From Sulfuricurvum sp. (GTDB taxonomy: Bacteria > Campylobacterota > Campylobacteria > Campylobacterales > Sulfurimonadaceae): a stretch of DNA of 64,000 nucleotides. A program made the translations under genes and the position numbers. Positions within the stretch are counted from its first letter, which is position 1. Each line of letters begins with the position of its first letter. The notes beneath the pieces were generated by a model that was not told the origin of the DNA, searched no databases, and saw only the letters and a program-made list of their open reading frames with translations. The stretch lies in assembly GCF_028710345.1 (NCBI RefSeq), contig NZ_JAQTUH010000003.1, positions 248,001-312,000 on the forward strand, in the 5' to 3' direction. This document shows, piece after piece, positions 20,106 to 35,441 of the stretch.

Positions 20106-20460
20106 CGGTGCTTTTTTAGGAGCAGTGCTACGCGCCTATTTAAATGGTGTAGTTAATCACCATCTCCCCCATACCCTCCCCTTTGGGACTATGTCGGTCA
20201 ATCTGCTCGGTAGTTTTATTATCGGTGCACTTCTCGCCTATTTTACCTATACTACGCTCTTTAGTGTCCATATGAAATCGTTTCTCACAACAGGATTTCT
20301 AGGGGGGTTAACCACCTATTCTACTTTTGCCATGGAGACTTTTTTGTTGCTCAGTGGAGGTCATATCATGATGGCAGCACTTAATATGGCACTCAATACA
20401 TTCGGTACAGTATTGATGGCAGCTTCTGGATATTATTTCTTTAAATCGTGGCTAAACTAA
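20068..20460 (+). CDS. crcB: Fluoride ion channel CrcB/Fluc
   Basis: 130 residues with four TM helices. Fluc landmarks: GAFLGAVLRAYLNG, FGTMSVNLLGSFIIGALLAY and GFLGGLTTYSTFAMET (the TYSTF stretch lines the pore). Three consecutive ATGs (20068, 20071, 20074) follow AGGTG; the third is best spaced. It exports fluoride as a dimer. It overlaps plsC by up to 38 bp. No fluoride riboswitch is visible, as expected inside an operon. Confidence 0.93.
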   Translation: MMMSLQTILAIGSGAFLGAVLRAYLNGVVNHHLPHTLPFGTMSVNLLGSFIIGALLAYFTYTTLFSVHMKSFLTTGFLGGLTTYSTFAMETFLLLSGGHIMMAALNMALNTFGTVLMAASGYYFFKSWLN

Positions 20461-20494
20461 TAATCTCATCGACACACCCTCCAAAGAGATTATT
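20459..20494. terminator. Converging hairpin between crcB and the Roc-MPE gene
   Basis: AATAATCTC (20459-20467) pairs with GAGATTATT (20486-20494), loop of 18. It overlaps both stop codons, so it could serve both strands; no long U-run, so moderate support. Confidence 0.45.
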
Positions 20495-23400
20495 GCTTAT
20501 TCTCATACATACAGCTCATTGACCCATCCTCTTGAGGATACAAACAAGCAGGCCTCCAATGTATTGTATGTTTTTCTCGTTCTCTTGTTTCCACAGAAAT
20601 ATTTTTTGTTTCTATATCAATGATAATTACGTTATAACGTAACGGAACCCCTGGAATCATACTCTTAGGATTGGTTGCATAGAAGATACCTGATCCAATC
20701 TGCAATACTCTTTGTGTACTTGCTATTACATCTTGAAATGATATAAGATTATTACGATGGACATGCCCATGAATATATGCTTTATAATCAAATTGGTGAA
20801 GGTTATTAATAAAATCATAATTGTGTTCAAATGATAACGGATGATGCCCAATCACAATTTTAGATTTTCCTTTATCAATTTGCTTTTGCACATTAATAAA
20901 AGAATCTACTTCAAAACTCACTTGCAGAGGTGTAAAATGGTCAATATGTGTAGATGTATTCATCAAAACAAAAGCTAGCTTATCATCTTGCATCACTTTT
21001 ATTTGTTTTGTCGAATCTGTATTAAACGGTTCATGATAAATTGTTTCATAAAGCCTTTCACTAAAGTACTTAAATTTATTTTTCCATTTTTCATCGTCAC
21101 GCTCTAAATAAATTCGATCATTTATTTTAAAATCTTTCTTTTCGCGAAACTTTAAAGCATCAAAATTTCTAATCTGATAAGCTCCATGTGTTATCTCTCG
21201 ACTGTAATCATGATTACCAGGAACGATCAAAACTCTTTCGGCATCTATATCGCAAAGGTCAATCAAACGTGATACAAACTGTGCAACTTTACTAAACTCA
21301 TTAGCGCTTCCCGAAGCAGATAAATCCCCACTCAAAATAATATAGTCGAACTCTTGTAAGCTTTTTTCATTTTCAAAACTATTAAGACGTTTAGCATCCT
21401 CTATCAAATAAGTAATTTCATTTTCAATAATACATTTTTCATCAAAATGCAGATCACTTAAATGTAGAATATTGAGCTTAGTTTTATTATTTTTACTTTC
21501 AAAAAACTTCTCTATTTTTTCATCAAAACCTTTGATCGTTTTTTCAATCTCTTCTTGAATTTTTTGAATAAATCTAATATCGGTAGCACCATTTGAGGAT
21601 GATCTTTTTGTTAATACATACTCTTCCGTTGTTTGAATTATGTCTTCCGAAGTAATTGTTCCCTTGGTCGTTAATGAGACACTGCCAATATGTATATTAT
21701 CCTTTTTATACAAATCAAAAGTTTGATATTCATACATAGATTCTAAACTGTGTTTCAAAATACTTTTGATATTTGCTAACAAATGCTGATTACTTTCTTC
21801 AACATTATTTTTTGCGTATACAATTATTGAAGTCGATGCTTGGTTTTTCTTATCTGCAATAATATCTTCACGGGAAAACTCAACCAAATATTCATTATTA
21901 TGTGCATCTTTTAGTTTAACCCCTTTATTCAGGTGTTTAACTATCTGATATTCACCACAGTAATTAAGTGAACAAACAACTGTGCTAATCGTCACCTCGA
22001 CATTTTTAGTTGATACTAAATCAACACTTCCAACTTTAAAATACTTTTTAGAATCAACTTGCCATTTTTTATAATGAAAACGGGAAGGAAAAACAAACAT
22101 CCCATTTTTAAAGTAGCAAATTTTGTCTTCCAGAAATATTCTAACTAACTCTTTCATAAAGAGCTTTTTGAGGTTATTATGAGAACGATTGCCAAACGTT
22201 TCTTTGTGTATATCTGCATCGGATCGGAAAGAATTTTTATACTCTTTTAAGGACTTTTTCTCACTATCAAGTAATTTGTCAAATTCAACTTTAAAAGCAT
22301 ATTCAAAAAGTGCCTGTTTACTAATACTCGCATGAACTTTTGGATTCTCCTCTGCATGACGTAAAATTGCAGTTGCAAAAATATTTTTCCAGTATGGTCT
22401 AAGGACAATATAATGATCCAACTTTTCAATCATTCCATCATCTGCCATAACTCCCAAAGCATCATCAACACTATTATTCTCGCGCGAATCATTTTCTTTC
22501 AAAGAACGTTTTAGTTCCTCTGCGTTTTCTAAATAGAACTTTTGCTTTCGTAATTTTTTGACTTCCTGCACAACCAATAATCCATCACTATCTAATAGTG
22601 CATCATGTTTTAGTTTGAATTGGTTAGTTATATAAGTTTGCATCTCTGTATAAAGTTCAGAGTCTTCAAACTTTTCTTGTGTCACATCGCATAAAAAATG
22701 TTTAACATAGGATATTTTGCTCATACCCTCAATCTGTTCTGTAATAGTCTTAAGCTTTTGTTTATCCGATCCTTTAGTACCTATAACAAAAATACCAAGC
22801 TGATCTTTGTTCATTTTGTCATAGTGTTCTTTGATACTATTAACCCAAAACAAAATCGAATTATCATCATGATCCGTACGACTAAGATCAACTACTAAAA
22901 AAATTAGACGGGTTTTATCAAAATTTTGTTTATGCGCAATTTGATATTCCGGTTGTCCCCCGAAATCCCATAAATTGAAGCTAAATAGATGCTTTTCCTC
23001 TTTCCCCTGAATTGTGATAGGAATTCTATCATTTAGATCTGATTCAAAAAAACGCATCCCATGCGTAGAATGGATCATATCGTCATGTGTTTTATACTCA
23101 CACCAATGCCCTAATGACGTTTTCCCTACTCCACTGTCCCCAAGCAACAATGTTTTAATATAAAACCGATTTTCTACATTTGGTTTTGTTGATTGAAAAC
23201 GATTTTGTTCTATCTTCTCTACATAAAAGTCTCCTGCTTGTGTTGCAAATACCAATAAATTATTCATATACAGTAGAGCACTCACAGTTGAAGAGACATT
23301 GTAGACTTCACGATTCTTCGGAGTTGTTTTATCACTTATATCTAGCGCACTGATGGTACCGTTACCATCATCAACCCATAACAAGTTATCGTGATACGAT

Positions 23401-25340
23401 ATATTTCTATTTTTTCGTTTTATTTCTCCCAAAGCTTCAATATTGTTCTTATCGCGAATATCCCATAGTTTGATTGTTTGATCACTTGGACTACTACTGG
23501 CAAGCGTATTTGAATCGATAAGGGTTAATGAAACAAGAAAGCTGTTCTGACTTTCAATCGTAGCAATGCACTCATGAGTAGAAATATCCCAAAATTTGAT
23601 TGTTTTATCATGTGAACTACTTACAAGAGTATTTGTATCAACAAGGACTAATGATGTAACTGAACTAGTATGTCCCTCAAGTGTAATACACTTTCCAGTG
23701 GTAATATCCCAAAGTTTAATAGTATTATCATACGAACTACTTGCAAGTGTGTTTTTGTCTACAAGAGCTAATGATGAAACTACGTTGGTATGCCCTTCAA
23801 GTGTAACATTGCACTTATGACTAGTAAGATTCCAGAGTTTAATAGTATTATCATACGAACTACTTGCAAGCGTGTTTTTGTCTACAAGGACCAATGATGA
23901 TATTGATTTAGTATGTCCCTCAAGAGTGGCACTATATATACGGCTAGTTATATCCCAAAGTTTGATGCTTGTATGATCTAATACAATGGCAAGTGTATTC
24001 TTATCTACAAAAGTAAATGATGAAATAATTTTGTTATTCCCTTTAATAGTTGCAATACACTTGTAAGTAGTAAGATCCCAAAATTTGATTTTTTTATCAT
24101 ACGAACCACTAACTAATGTATTTTTCCCCATAAGAGCTAATGATGTAACAGAATTAGAATGCCCTTGAAGAGCAATATATGATTGTTGAGTGATATCCCA
24201 AAGCTTAATAGTATCACCTGAACTTATAGCAAGAGTGTTTATATCCACAACAGCCAATGCTGTGGGTGAGCTAATATTTCCATTAAGGGTCATGGTACAA
24301 TCGTATGTGACTAAGTCCCAAAATTTGATTTTTTCAAGCGAACCACTTACAAGAGTATTTTTATCCATAAGGACTAAAGATGTAACATTACTAGCATTCC
24401 CTTCAAGTGTAACAATACAATTTTGGGTAGATAAATCCCAAAGTTTGATAGTTTTATCATCTGATGCACTGGCAAGAGTGTTTACATCTACAAGAGCTAA
24501 TGATCGAATCCCATCGCTATGCCCTTTTAGGGTAACAATACATTGATATGTTGTCAAATCCCATAATTGAATGAACGGAGAATAGGAACCACTGGCAAGA
24601 ATATTTGAATTAACAAGGATTAGTGATGTGATAAAATAATCCCCTTCCAAAGTAGCAATACATTCATGCGTGGTGAGATCCCACAATTTTATTCTGACTT
24701 CATCTGCGCTGGCAAGAGTATTTTCATCCACAATCACCAATGCAACAATATAGTTTTTATGCCCTTGTAGTGTAGCAACCTCTTTTTTTGTCACCTTATC
24801 CCATAGTCGTATCGTTTCATCATTTGAAGCAGAAATAATATATTGCTCTGTAGTCACAATTGCAGTGATAAAACCAGCATGTCCATTGAGATAGGAGTCT
24901 TGAAGCAAATATTCATGATTAAGAGGGTTAGCACTTTTCGTCGAAAATCGCTGATAAAGCTGTTCGATATATCGATAGGTTTTGGTTGTTGAACGAACTA
25001 ATTTATTTAATGTTCCTGTCCCAGCACCTGGAAAAGCTTCATATTCTTCTTTAAACAACAGTAAAGGCTTAACAGTTCTACGGTGTTCAAACCAATCTAA
25101 ATGAATATCATTTTTTTCTCTAAAAGTAGCCTCACCAGTTATTTCAACAAGTGCTAGAGATTGTTTTCCATGACGAACAAGTACGATATCACCAATTTGC
25201 ATTTGATGGATAAACTGGTGTATTACATTTTTGCCATCCGACCACTCACCTAAACCTATAACCCCTTTTTGTTCAATTATTTCGATTTCTTTATCAAAAG
25301 ATGGATCATTTGGATGCATTTGTAGGTGCCAGAAAGTCAT
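20490..25340 (-). CDS. PUA/EVE-like - WD40 - Roc GTPase - COR-like - metallophosphoesterase multidomain protein
   Basis: 1616 residues from the ATG at 25340 (AAGGGA upstream; a further ATG at 25361 has none). Order: residues 1-135 PUA/EVE-like (FWHLQMHP; GVIGLGEW; MQIGDIVLVRHGKQSLALVEI); 148-700 WD40, with 12 clear WD repeats of about 40 residues plus two weak ones, fitting two seven-bladed propellers; 725-915 Roc-type GTPase with P-loop GDSGVGKTS (734-742), DFGGQPEY (792-799) and GTKGSD (854-859); 955-1110 COR-like (DDGMIEKL, IVLRPYWKNIFATAIL); a beta-rich part to 1240 and a coiled helix; 1288-1575 calcineurin-like phosphoesterase with DLHFD, GDLSASG, GNHDY, GHHPLS and HGHVH, all metal ligands present. 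No signal peptide or TM. It resembles bacterial NLR/Roco-type sensors coupled to a nuclease- or nucleotidase-like effector; defence is inference. Visibly AT-rich, preceded by a small TM gene. Confidence 0.9.
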   Translation of the reverse strand: MTFWHLQMHPNDPSFDKEIEIIEQKGVIGLGEWSDGKNVIHQFIHQMQIGDIVLVRHGKQSLALVEITGEATFREKNDIHLDWFEHRRTVKPLLLFKEEYEAFPGAGTGTLNKLVRSTTKTYRYIEQLYQRFSTKSANPLNHEYLLQDSYLNGHAGFITAIVTTEQYIISASNDETIRLWDKVTKKEVATLQGHKNYIVALVIVDENTLASADEVRIKLWDLTTHECIATLEGDYFITSLILVNSNILASGSYSPFIQLWDLTTYQCIVTLKGHSDGIRSLALVDVNTLASASDDKTIKLWDLSTQNCIVTLEGNASNVTSLVLMDKNTLVSGSLEKIKFWDLVTYDCTMTLNGNISSPTALAVVDINTLAISSGDTIKLWDITQQSYIALQGHSNSVTSLALMGKNTLVSGSYDKKIKFWDLTTYKCIATIKGNNKIISSFTFVDKNTLAIVLDHTSIKLWDITSRIYSATLEGHTKSISSLVLVDKNTLASSSYDNTIKLWNLTSHKCNVTLEGHTNVVSSLALVDKNTLASSSYDNTIKLWDITTGKCITLEGHTSSVTSLVLVDTNTLVSSSHDKTIKFWDISTHECIATIESQNSFLVSLTLIDSNTLASSSPSDQTIKLWDIRDKNNIEALGEIKRKNRNISYHDNLLWVDDGNGTISALDISDKTTPKNREVYNVSSTVSALLYMNNLLVFATQAGDFYVEKIEQNRFQSTKPNVENRFYIKTLLLGDSGVGKTSLGHWCEYKTHDDMIHSTHGMRFFESDLNDRIPITIQGKEEKHLFSFNLWDFGGQPEYQIAHKQNFDKTRLIFLVVDLSRTDHDDNSILFWVNSIKEHYDKMNKDQLGIFVIGTKGSDKQKLKTITEQIEGMSKISYVKHFLCDVTQEKFEDSELYTEMQTYITNQFKLKHDALLDSDGLLVVQEVKKLRKQKFYLENAEELKRSLKENDSRENNSVDDALGVMADDGMIEKLDHYIVLRPYWKNIFATAILRHAEENPKVHASISKQALFEYAFKVEFDKLLDSEKKSLKEYKNSFRSDADIHKETFGNRSHNNLKKLFMKELVRIFLEDKICYFKNGMFVFPSRFHYKKWQVDSKKYFKVGSVDLVSTKNVEVTISTVVCSLNYCGEYQIVKHLNKGVKLKDAHNNEYLVEFSREDIIADKKNQASTSIIVYAKNNVEESNQHLLANIKSILKHSLESMYEYQTFDLYKKDNIHIGSVSLTTKGTITSEDIIQTTEEYVLTKRSSSNGATDIRFIQKIQEEIEKTIKGFDEKIEKFFESKNNKTKLNILHLSDLHFDEKCIIENEITYLIEDAKRLNSFENEKSLQEFDYIILSGDLSASGSANEFSKVAQFVSRLIDLCDIDAERVLIVPGNHDYSREITHGAYQIRNFDALKFREKKDFKINDRIYLERDDEKWKNKFKYFSERLYETIYHEPFNTDSTKQIKVMQDDKLAFVLMNTSTHIDHFTPLQVSFEVDSFINVQKQIDKGKSKIVIGHHPLSFEHNYDFINNLHQFDYKAYIHGHVHRNNLISFQDVIASTQRVLQIGSGIFYATNPKSMIPGVPLRYNVIIIDIETKNISVETREREKHTIHWRPACLYPQEDGSMSCMYENKQ
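23180..24910. repeat. WD40 coding repeats, period about 120-123 bp
   Basis: Repeat units encode GH...SL.LVD.NTLASSS.D.TIKLWD. Two adjacent units are almost identical over about 55 bases (23711-23766 against 23834-23889), exactly 123 bp apart, which points to recent internal duplication or conversion. Confidence 0.8.
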
Positions 25341-25473
25341 ACATATCCCTTTTTTAAACATAATTGTTAAAATGAATTAGTATGTATTATATATTTTGAA
25401 GCTTAGGTTTATGCAGAAAAGTAATAAGAGAGTATAAATAAGTAAATTTTTCTATGATCTAAAATGGAAGAAA

Positions 25474-25950
25474 TTATAATTTCTTCCATACCCAATCATC
25501 GCATCGTATCGTCATCTCTGTTTTAGAATGACCCATCCATTTACCTTCCATCGTTTTGGAATCTTTTATATGCAGTTGAAATGTACCAAAATAACCTCTT
25601 AGATCATCCTTATCATACCAATCGCCAATAAAAAACTCCCCTACAATCTTTCCAAATACAACATATACTTTTTGATTTGCAACCGTTTCCGTATAACAAT
25701 AATGTGCCCATTGTTTGATTATAGGATGTCCATGCCGACCTGTTGATTCAACAAATGTTGTACTGCCTCCACTCTCCCAATGTTGTTCCCACTGTCCCGC
25801 TATTGTTTCAGTTTTAATACGTAAAAAATTCCGTGCAGAAAACCACCAAAAGTATTGTACGAACAATGGCATTATCCGTAAATCAAGTAAATTTTTTATA
25901 ATTAATACAATTACAAATGCAATGACAGGTAAAAATTCTTTATATTCCAT
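25474..25950 (-). CDS. Single-TM protein with C-terminal beta-rich domain
   Basis: 158 residues, AAGGA six bases before the ATG. One TM helix (residues 6-34, with KNLLDLRI) then a cytoplasmic or periplasmic domain of about 115 residues with Trp- and Gly-rich strands: IAGQWEQHWESGG, VYVVFGKIVGEFFIGDWYD, GYFGTFQLHIKDSKTMEGKW, and WVWKKL at the end. This GxW...G.F.L....G.W.G rhythm looks like a lipocalin-like small barrel seen in many uncharacterised bacterial proteins. It starts 12 bp after the ABC ATPase gene and lies 133 bp upstream of the giant Roc-MPE gene on the same strand, so the two may work together. Function unknown. Confidence 0.75.
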   Translation of the reverse strand: MEYKEFLPVIAFVIVLIIKNLLDLRIMPLFVQYFWWFSARNFLRIKTETIAGQWEQHWESGGSTTFVESTGRHGHPIIKQWAHYCYTETVANQKVYVVFGKIVGEFFIGDWYDKDDLRGYFGTFQLHIKDSKTMEGKWMGHSKTEMTIRCDDWVWKKL

Positions 25951-25962
25951 GCTTATTCCTTT

Positions 25963-26532
25963 TTATGAAAGCTGTATAATTTCATCGGCGCACCACTGCG
26001 CTAAAGAATCATCATGCGTAATAATCAAAATCCCCATATCCTCTAAATGTTCTACAATCAATTTCATAATCTCAAGCTGATTTTGATTATCCAATGCCGA
26101 AGTCGGCTCATCGAGCAATAATAATTTCGGCTTCATTAATAGTGAGCGTAAAATAGAACATCGCTGAAGCTGTCCACCGGAGAGTTTGTGCGGTAATACA
26201 TCTAGATATCCCTCTTCAAGCCCCATTGTATCCATTAATCTCTCATACCCCTCCATAGAGACCACATCCCTTATTTGTTCACGAATCGTATAGGTGGGGT
26301 GAAAAGAGCTGTAGGGGTCTTGAAAAACTTGAGAAAGATTAAGAGCAGTTATACTTCCGAGATTGGGTTTTAATCGTCCCAAGATAAGTTCAAAGAGGGT
26401 TGATTTTCCAACACCGCTGGGTCCGACTATCGCTTTTATCTCCCCTTTATTAAGGATTAGAGAGAAATCGTCGAAAACCATCTTCTCTTTGGTGTATCCA
26501 AACGAGAGATTGCTGATCTCTAAAACTCTCAA
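25963..26532 (-). CDS. Solitary ABC transporter ATP-binding protein (Dpp/Nik-like)
   Basis: 189 residues, shorter than the usual 240-330. Walker A GPSGVGKST, Q-loop VFQDPYSSFHP (characteristic of the oligopeptide/nickel class), signature LSGGQLQR, Walker B LLLLDEPTSALD, switch His in ITHDDS. The start overlaps proA by 4 bp (ATGA). No permease or binding protein lies next to it. It may energise a transporter encoded elsewhere. Confidence 0.88.
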   Translation of the reverse strand: MRVLEISNLSFGYTKEKMVFDDFSLILNKGEIKAIVGPSGVGKSTLFELILGRLKPNLGSITALNLSQVFQDPYSSFHPTYTIREQIRDVVSMEGYERLMDTMGLEEGYLDVLPHKLSGGQLQRCSILRSLLMKPKLLLLDEPTSALDNQNQLEIMKLIVEHLEDMGILIITHDDSLAQWCADEIIQLS

Positions 26533-34395: not shown

Positions 34396-34635
34396 TTATA
34401 ATAAATAATTTTCTATGATATCAAATAGACCATCTTCATGCTCATGCATAAACATTTTCGATATGATAAACTTTGTTTTATTTTCAATATCAGCATAAGT
34501 GTTTAGATTATTTAAGAAATTAAATTGACCATTTTCAAGTTCAAAAAAATATAAATGTAATTCGTCTTTCATACAATCACTTTCTAATAATAAATATTTT
34601 TTGAAATACTCAATTTTTTCTTCTAGTGTTAACAT
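34396..34635 (-). CDS. Small hypothetical protein, partner of the DUF3883-type nuclease
   Basis: 79 residues, rich in Glu, Leu, Phe and Asn, no TM or signal. It starts inside the last codons of the upstream nuclease-like gene (7-bp overlap), so it is probably co-translated with it. Not recognised. Could be an immunity or regulatory partner; AT-rich like its neighbour. Confidence 0.6.
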   Translation of the reverse strand: MLTLEEKIEYFKKYLLLESDCMKDELHLYFFELENGQFNFLNNLNTYADIENKTKFIISKMFMHEHEDGLFDIIENYLL

Positions 34636-35441
34636 ATTTCACCCACCAAATGATATTCTTTGCTGATTTTAGAATTTATAATTCTTTCTTCAAATTTTAA
34701 ATTTTTTATTGGATTTTCAATGGTTAAGAAAGTAGGTAAATCATTCATATTTAATACTAAAGTTACAATATAATCATTTTGATATTCCAATGCTTTTTTA
34801 TACTCATTTTCAGTAAGTCTAAATTTCCCTTTCTTCTCACGAATACCTTTTATTTCTGCTAAATACGTAGAAGTATTTACATTTACTTGGAAATCGTACC
34901 CATCTCCAAACAATCTTGCATCCTCTAAACTTCCATCATTAAATATACTGATTGCATTAAAATTATTCATAAAGTAAATTTCTGCTTCTAATCCCGTTTC
35001 TTGAAGCTTTTTAAATCTTGATTTAACTATTGGTTTAACACTGATCAAAATATCTTCAACTTCATAATTTTCTTTCATATATAGTTTTACAATATTTGCA
35101 AATCCTTTGGCATCTTCAAGTCCAAATAAACTATCTATCAAAATTTTTCTATGAATATAGGTATCACCTTTTTGCCACCAACCTTTTCTTCCATTATTAG
35201 GAAAAAAATGATCAAATAAATCCATTCTATTTTTAACAGTACCAACTGTTTCAGCTATGTTATGGAGAACACAATACTCATAAAAAGCTGTTTTAGTTGA
35301 AAATCCAAACTCTTTTATAAAATCATCATTAAATTTTGAAAGCCCATAACCTATGAGATTTAAAATTTCATAATTTTGATGTTTTTGTCCAGATTTTTTC
35401 ATAATGTATTGTATTTCCATATATTTAGTAGTTCTTTGCAT
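34629..35441 (-). CDS. DUF3883-like (PD-(D/E)XK-type) nuclease-domain protein
   Basis: 270 residues. The C-terminal 130 residues fit the DUF3883 pattern: a helix with E153 (GLEAEIYFMNNF), then GDGYDFQV with D183, YLAEIKGI with E196 and K198, and FRLTENEYKKALEYQNDY, the typical strand-helix after the ExK. That gives a D...ExK nuclease-like centre. Residues 1-140 are helical and unrecognised (IHRKILIDSLFGLEDA). DUF3883 domains occur in restriction and phage-defence proteins. No ribosome site supports any of the early Met codons strongly; alternatives are 35420 and 35402. Strongly AT-rich compared with the flanks. Confidence 0.75.
   Translation of the reverse strand: MQRTTKYMEIQYIMKKSGQKHQNYEILNLIGYGLSKFNDDFIKEFGFSTKTAFYEYCVLHNIAETVGTVKNRMDLFDHFFPNNGRKGWWQKGDTYIHRKILIDSLFGLEDAKGFANIVKLYMKENYEVEDILISVKPIVKSRFKKLQETGLEAEIYFMNNFNAISIFNDGSLEDARLFGDGYDFQVNVNTSTYLAEIKGIREKKGKFRLTENEYKKALEYQNDYIVTLVLNMNDLPTFLTIENPIKNLKFEERIINSKISKEYHLVGEIC

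Follow-up and report, generated by a model that had tools for sequence, protein, structure and literature searches.

The 64,000-nucleotide stretch of Sulfuricurvum sp. DNA analyzed here (hereafter the window) carries a gene for a 158-amino acid protein with one transmembrane (TM) helix and a predicted beta-barrel (25474..25950, minus strand; found in the ORF listing and through homologs in genomes G426 and G164). We tentatively favor the reading that this small protein is a membrane-anchored, ligand-binding barrel whose function would be that of a defense effector or regulator, reused beside different defense genes. It has the look of a reusable defense part more than of a partner dedicated to the giant, immune-sensor-like gene that follows it, which encodes WD40 repeats, a Roc GTPase, an unassigned region in the COR position, and a C-terminal calcineurin-like metallophosphoesterase.

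The small gene has an ATG start codon preceded at short distance by a ribosome-binding site (AAAGGA), and 12 nt separate this start from the stop of the adjacent ABC ATPase gene. No family in Pfam, NCBIfam, PADLOC, or PHROGs matched the protein at an E-value of 0.001 or better. Protein and profile searches of 397 phylum genomes and 228 from the same bacterial family recovered two relatives, in G426 (46% identity) and G164 (35% identity); because homologs at these identities exist in two other genomes, the ORF is not a chance reading frame. The G426 copy lies on a contig of Sulfurimonas sp. STA_12 and was the sole copy to emerge from a separate scan of genome contigs. The three members align over nearly their full length, with about 45 invariant residues, and occur in 3 of the 228 genomes of the bacterial family. 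The family is therefore real but rare, and it is unnamed. Searches of plasmids, phages, and viral contigs yielded no further members, and a nucleotide search of E. coli gave no match. Several weaker candidates were rejected: a single motif-pattern match in a viral contig arose by chance within a phage gene, weak matches within the phylum (e.g., G212 and G285) cover parts of the protein only, sequence-profile matches to PadR regulators in the PDB (E 0.3) were judged to be chance, and a match to the PADLOC "2TM effector" family (E 0.097) involves the TM region and linker only.

The initial annotation described a TM helix and a small beta-rich domain, and both were recovered. The TM helix spans residues 6-24 (25879..25935, minus strand), with a mean Kyte-Doolittle hydropathy of 2.34 over 19 residues and a predicted helix at 7-23; beyond residue 30 the best 19-residue window scores only 1.04. 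Hydropathy thus indicates one clear TM segment, which in the structural models is followed by a short aromatic helix. The C-terminal domain, at about residues 51-157 (25480..25800, minus strand), is made up of predicted strands with the conserved pattern DWYDKKD...GYxGxFQL...MxGxWxGHS...WKK. The model of the window protein itself (pLDDT 54, six strands) is too poor to support fold claims; its matches to outer membrane proteins (OMP), TbpB, and designed barrels reflect barrel-like arrangements only, and no viral structure matched it well. A model of the relative with 46% identity, for which the window protein supplied the second alignment row, is better; it has a pLDDT of 65 and a pTM of 0.55 and contains a TM helix (residues 5-26), a short helix (30-36), and then eight antiparallel strands arranged in a barrel. 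An eight-stranded up-and-down barrel is thus predicted with moderate confidence for the relative, and more weakly for the window protein. The invariant residues include polar and aromatic ones (W54, W58, R72, Q80, Y84, E88, D113, K114, D116, Y120, Q125, W138, H141, and S142) that would suit a putative binding site.

The structures that match the relative's model best are those of Cap15, avidins, and designed eight-stranded barrels, with little between them. Superposition on the Cap15 structure 7n35 gave a VIA Z of 11.2 and an rmsd of 2.4 over 97 of 104 residues, and Foldseek returned a TM-score of 0.71 by target length, with 7n34 at rank 7; avidins and designed barrels match equally well (Z 11-13), and Foldseek E-values never fell below 0.0015. 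Avidin-type and other calycin-like barrels share the eight-stranded up-and-down topology, and no sequence similarity between avidin-type barrels and the small protein was detected. Avidins are secreted biotin binders that lack a TM anchor. To our knowledge, Cap15 alone among the top structural matches is a membrane-anchored defense protein with an equal order of domains.

Like the small protein, Cap15 (a CBASS effector of the S-2TMbeta type, PF18153; PDB 7n34 and 7n35) has an N-terminal membrane anchor ahead of a C-terminal beta-barrel and resides in defense neighborhoods. Cap15, however, has two TM helices where the small protein has one clear TM segment, profile similarity between the two does not exceed chance, and the small gene has no adjacent CD-NTase. 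The Pfam model PF18153 (Cap15_CD_rec) matched neither the window protein nor either relative, and scanning the host genome (G000) and G164 with it gave no match. When aligned by hhalign to a Cap15 alignment, only 20 columns of the TM region were paired (probability 37). A profile of the barrel alone scored 16.6 against Cap15, a value that some of 100 column shuffles reached (maximum 18.7); the best barrel-only alignment, at the first-strand motif I/L-x-G-x-W, was likewise no better than the shuffles. The ORF listing and family scans found no CD-NTase, mCpol, or cyclase among the neighbors at any of the three loci. The host genome has a single SMODS gene, which lies on a different contig, and none is present in the genomes of the relatives; mCpol was found in neither the host genome nor G426, and G164 gave only a sub-threshold match. 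That host gene, of the SMODS CD-NTase type, is located at 5421-5909 of contig C21 (locus L068, G000). OptE, the 2TMbeta protein of Panoptes, offers a second likeness, in that it too joins a TM anchor to a barrel within a small two-gene defense unit; its partner, however, is an mCpol synthase, whereas the neighbor of the small protein is the WD40-Roc-metallophosphoesterase protein (PMC12657218, PMC12657230). On the modeled fold, the best reading is that the small protein is Cap15-like, but not Cap15.

The two relatives lie beside other genes. In G426, the small gene is 55 bp downstream of a candidate defense gene of the DUF4917 family (PADLOC PDC-S21, E 4.5e-102) and is followed by a retron-type NDT gene and a reverse transcriptase; farther along lies a phage-type integrase. 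In G164, it adjoins a D12-type methylase and a type II restriction enzyme. The giant was found in neither of these genomes. Its one homolog in a 200-genome sample of the phylum, in G051, has no small TM neighbor, and that genome contains no match to the small protein. The initial annotation proposed that the small protein is the giant's membrane partner; the two co-occur only in the present genome, and these comparisons do not, at present, support a dedicated partnership. The family does occur without the giant, an outcome anticipated there as counting against partnership, although this was seen in two genomes and not across many, and in neither of them does the small gene adjoin proA or the ABC gene. 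All three members sit in acquired, AT-rich stretches with defense-type genes. The counts are small but consistent with an association of the small protein with defense genes in general rather than with the giant in particular, and, given the small numbers, its pairing with the giant here may be opportunistic. The G426 stretch (L008 8225-16479) comprises the DUF4917/PDC-S21 gene, the small-protein relative, a retron (NDT-like gene and reverse transcriptase), a 376-aa gene, and the integrase, and is possibly an undescribed mobile defense island.

The same neighborhoods could be explained by a small gene that is an independent single-gene defense, or a passenger that travels with any nearby cassette, such that its proximity to the giant is functionally meaningless. 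Three different sets of neighbors in three genomes, a rare and scattered distribution (3/228), and the position of the present copy, directly after the proA-ABC genes with a gap of only 12 nt, all favor this possibility. We nonetheless regard it as somewhat doubtful, in that a same-strand, defense-type neighbor in every case suggests a functional link to defense.

The giant (20490..25340, minus strand) was delimited by domain scans and start analysis: its longest ORF begins at 25361, but the Met at 25340 (MTFWHL) is its likely start, giving 1616 amino acids, because a AAAGGGAT-type ribosome-binding site lies just upstream of that codon. With this start, the small gene is 133 bp upstream of the giant on the same strand, precisely as first annotated. 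The intergenic gap (25341..25473) is about 20% GC and has no terminator-like site; promoter and terminator scans of it gave nothing above chance.

Both genes occupy an insertion at a conserved chromosomal junction. The ABC ATPase gene (25963..26532, minus strand; Pfam ABC_tran), a conserved host gene beside proA into whose 3' end the insertion went, occurs in all 41 same-genus genomes. Of 29 same-genus loci, 23 have it directly against the convergent crcB gene, the aligned ends being -5 to +7 bases apart in nearly all of them, and the other six lack crcB at that spot; neither the small gene nor the giant is found in any of the 29. In the window, the ABC gene and crcB are separated by an AT-rich insertion of ca. 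5.5 kb whose contents are the small gene and the giant only. At the two ends of the insertion lie the arms of a 19-bp direct repeat, which is imperfect, with 16 of 19 bases identical. The arm on the crcB side (GGTGTGTCGATGAGATTAT; 20460..20478, minus strand) is a remnant of the native ABC 3' end and continues as the relatives' native ABC 3' ends do; the arm on the ABC side (GGTGCGCCGATGAAATTAT; 25976..25994, minus strand) is the 3' end of the present ABC gene. These arms are the only two copies in the whole genome, and a match of this type arises between random 45-mers of the window with a frequency of about 0.0015. No recombinase gene was found inside the insertion. The arrangement would fit an element that targets a gene's 3' end and reconstitutes the gene on insertion, which we presume from general knowledge of such elements.

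The AT-rich composition noted initially for both genes holds: their GC contents (0.342 for the small gene, 0.329 for the giant) and GC3 values (0.253 and 0.244) agree with each other and differ from those of the host genes proA, ABC, plsC, and crcB (GC3 0.39-0.43). Because the relatives' genes are likewise AT-rich (GC3 0.235 and 0.279) beside other neighbors, composition alone is weak evidence for joint arrival and marks acquisition, not partnership. The claim that the two genes arrived together draws stronger support from the repeat-flanked insertion in a conserved junction, which supports movement of the small gene and the giant as one unit in this one genome. Elsewhere in the window, the gene at 34629-35441 (GC3 0.156, with a NOV_C domain, Pfam PF13020) is probably another acquired gene.

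Exactly two genes of matching composition, on one strand, 133 bp apart and within one repeat-flanked insertion, would be expected of a dedicated system in which the giant senses through its WD40 repeats, switches through its Roc GTPase, and cuts through its metallophosphoesterase, while the small protein serves as its membrane effector or anchor. Such a system is nevertheless unlikely, in that the two families were not found together in any other genome (the small gene in G164 and G426, the giant homolog in G051), and the intergenic gap of 20% GC gives room for separate expression. More improbable still is a role for the small protein as a regulator or protective partner, antitoxin-like or an anchor, that restrains neighboring toxic effectors at the membrane: potentially self-harmful enzymes do adjoin the small gene at 3 of 3 loci, but type II methylase-endonuclease pairs bring their own protection, and the neighbors are unrelated enzymes without a known common binding surface.

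The reading that we favor, a reusable membrane-anchored barrel, would have an N-terminal TM helix, a short second helix, and then an eight-stranded barrel that probably faces the cytoplasm. It would be a small defense-island part, carried here on a two-gene insertion with the WD40-Roc-metallophosphoesterase gene. In the published picture of both Cap15 and OptE, binding of a cyclic dinucleotide by the barrel controls oligomerization and disruption of the inner membrane, with the dinucleotide acting in opposite senses in the two systems (PMC12657218, PMC12657230); Cap15-dependent membrane damage is also described in PMC10686824. Architecture and context suggest that a mechanism of the same kind is most likely for the small protein: the barrel may sense a small ligand or else a molecule of phage or host origin, such sensing would change the oligomeric state, and the TM segments would then disturb the inner membrane as they do in Cap15 and OptE. 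Counted against the barrel reading are the tie of Cap15 with avidins and designed barrels, the chance-level profile score, the poor model of the window protein, the one clear TM segment in place of two, the lack of an adjacent synthase, and a family of three known members. It is highly improbable that the barrel effector is kept inactive by a bound nucleotide that the triggered WD40-Roc metallophosphoesterase destroys, thereby freeing membrane attack in a Panoptes-like logic without a dedicated synthase, a scheme whose sole basis is the nucleotidyl phosphodiesterase role proposed for calcineurin-superfamily domains in related conflict systems (PMC7159879).

If the favored reading is true, Cap15 and OptE share their TM-plus-barrel architecture with a family that is unrelated to them in sequence, or extremely diverged, and whose neighbors are WD40-Roc, SIR2-like/retron, and restriction genes rather than cyclases. 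Bacterial immunity would then have a wider set of candidate membrane effectors, one not confined to second-messenger systems, and the three-member alignment allows searches for this unnamed family.

Further observations concern the giant, which occurs in 1 of the 228 genomes of the bacterial family, that of the present strain. The ca. 120 residues at its N-terminus (24882-25361), ahead of the WD40 repeats, gave no match to Pfam families or PDB sequences; on visual inspection, they are reminiscent of PUA/EVE-like readers of modified bases. In the G051 homolog (L064 2150-10672), WD40-Roc and metallophosphoesterase are encoded by separate ORFs that overlap by 4 bases. This homolog begins 9 bp downstream of an MksE-like gene and an SMC-like (MksB/JetC-type) gene, in the position expected for the MksG/JetD nuclease of Wadjet-type systems. 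The best relative of the giant's metallophosphoesterase (29% identity over 34% of the query) is on a plasmid of Nostoc sp. C057 (L061 3412-9476), where it is part of a long protein and a NACHT-domain gene follows directly.
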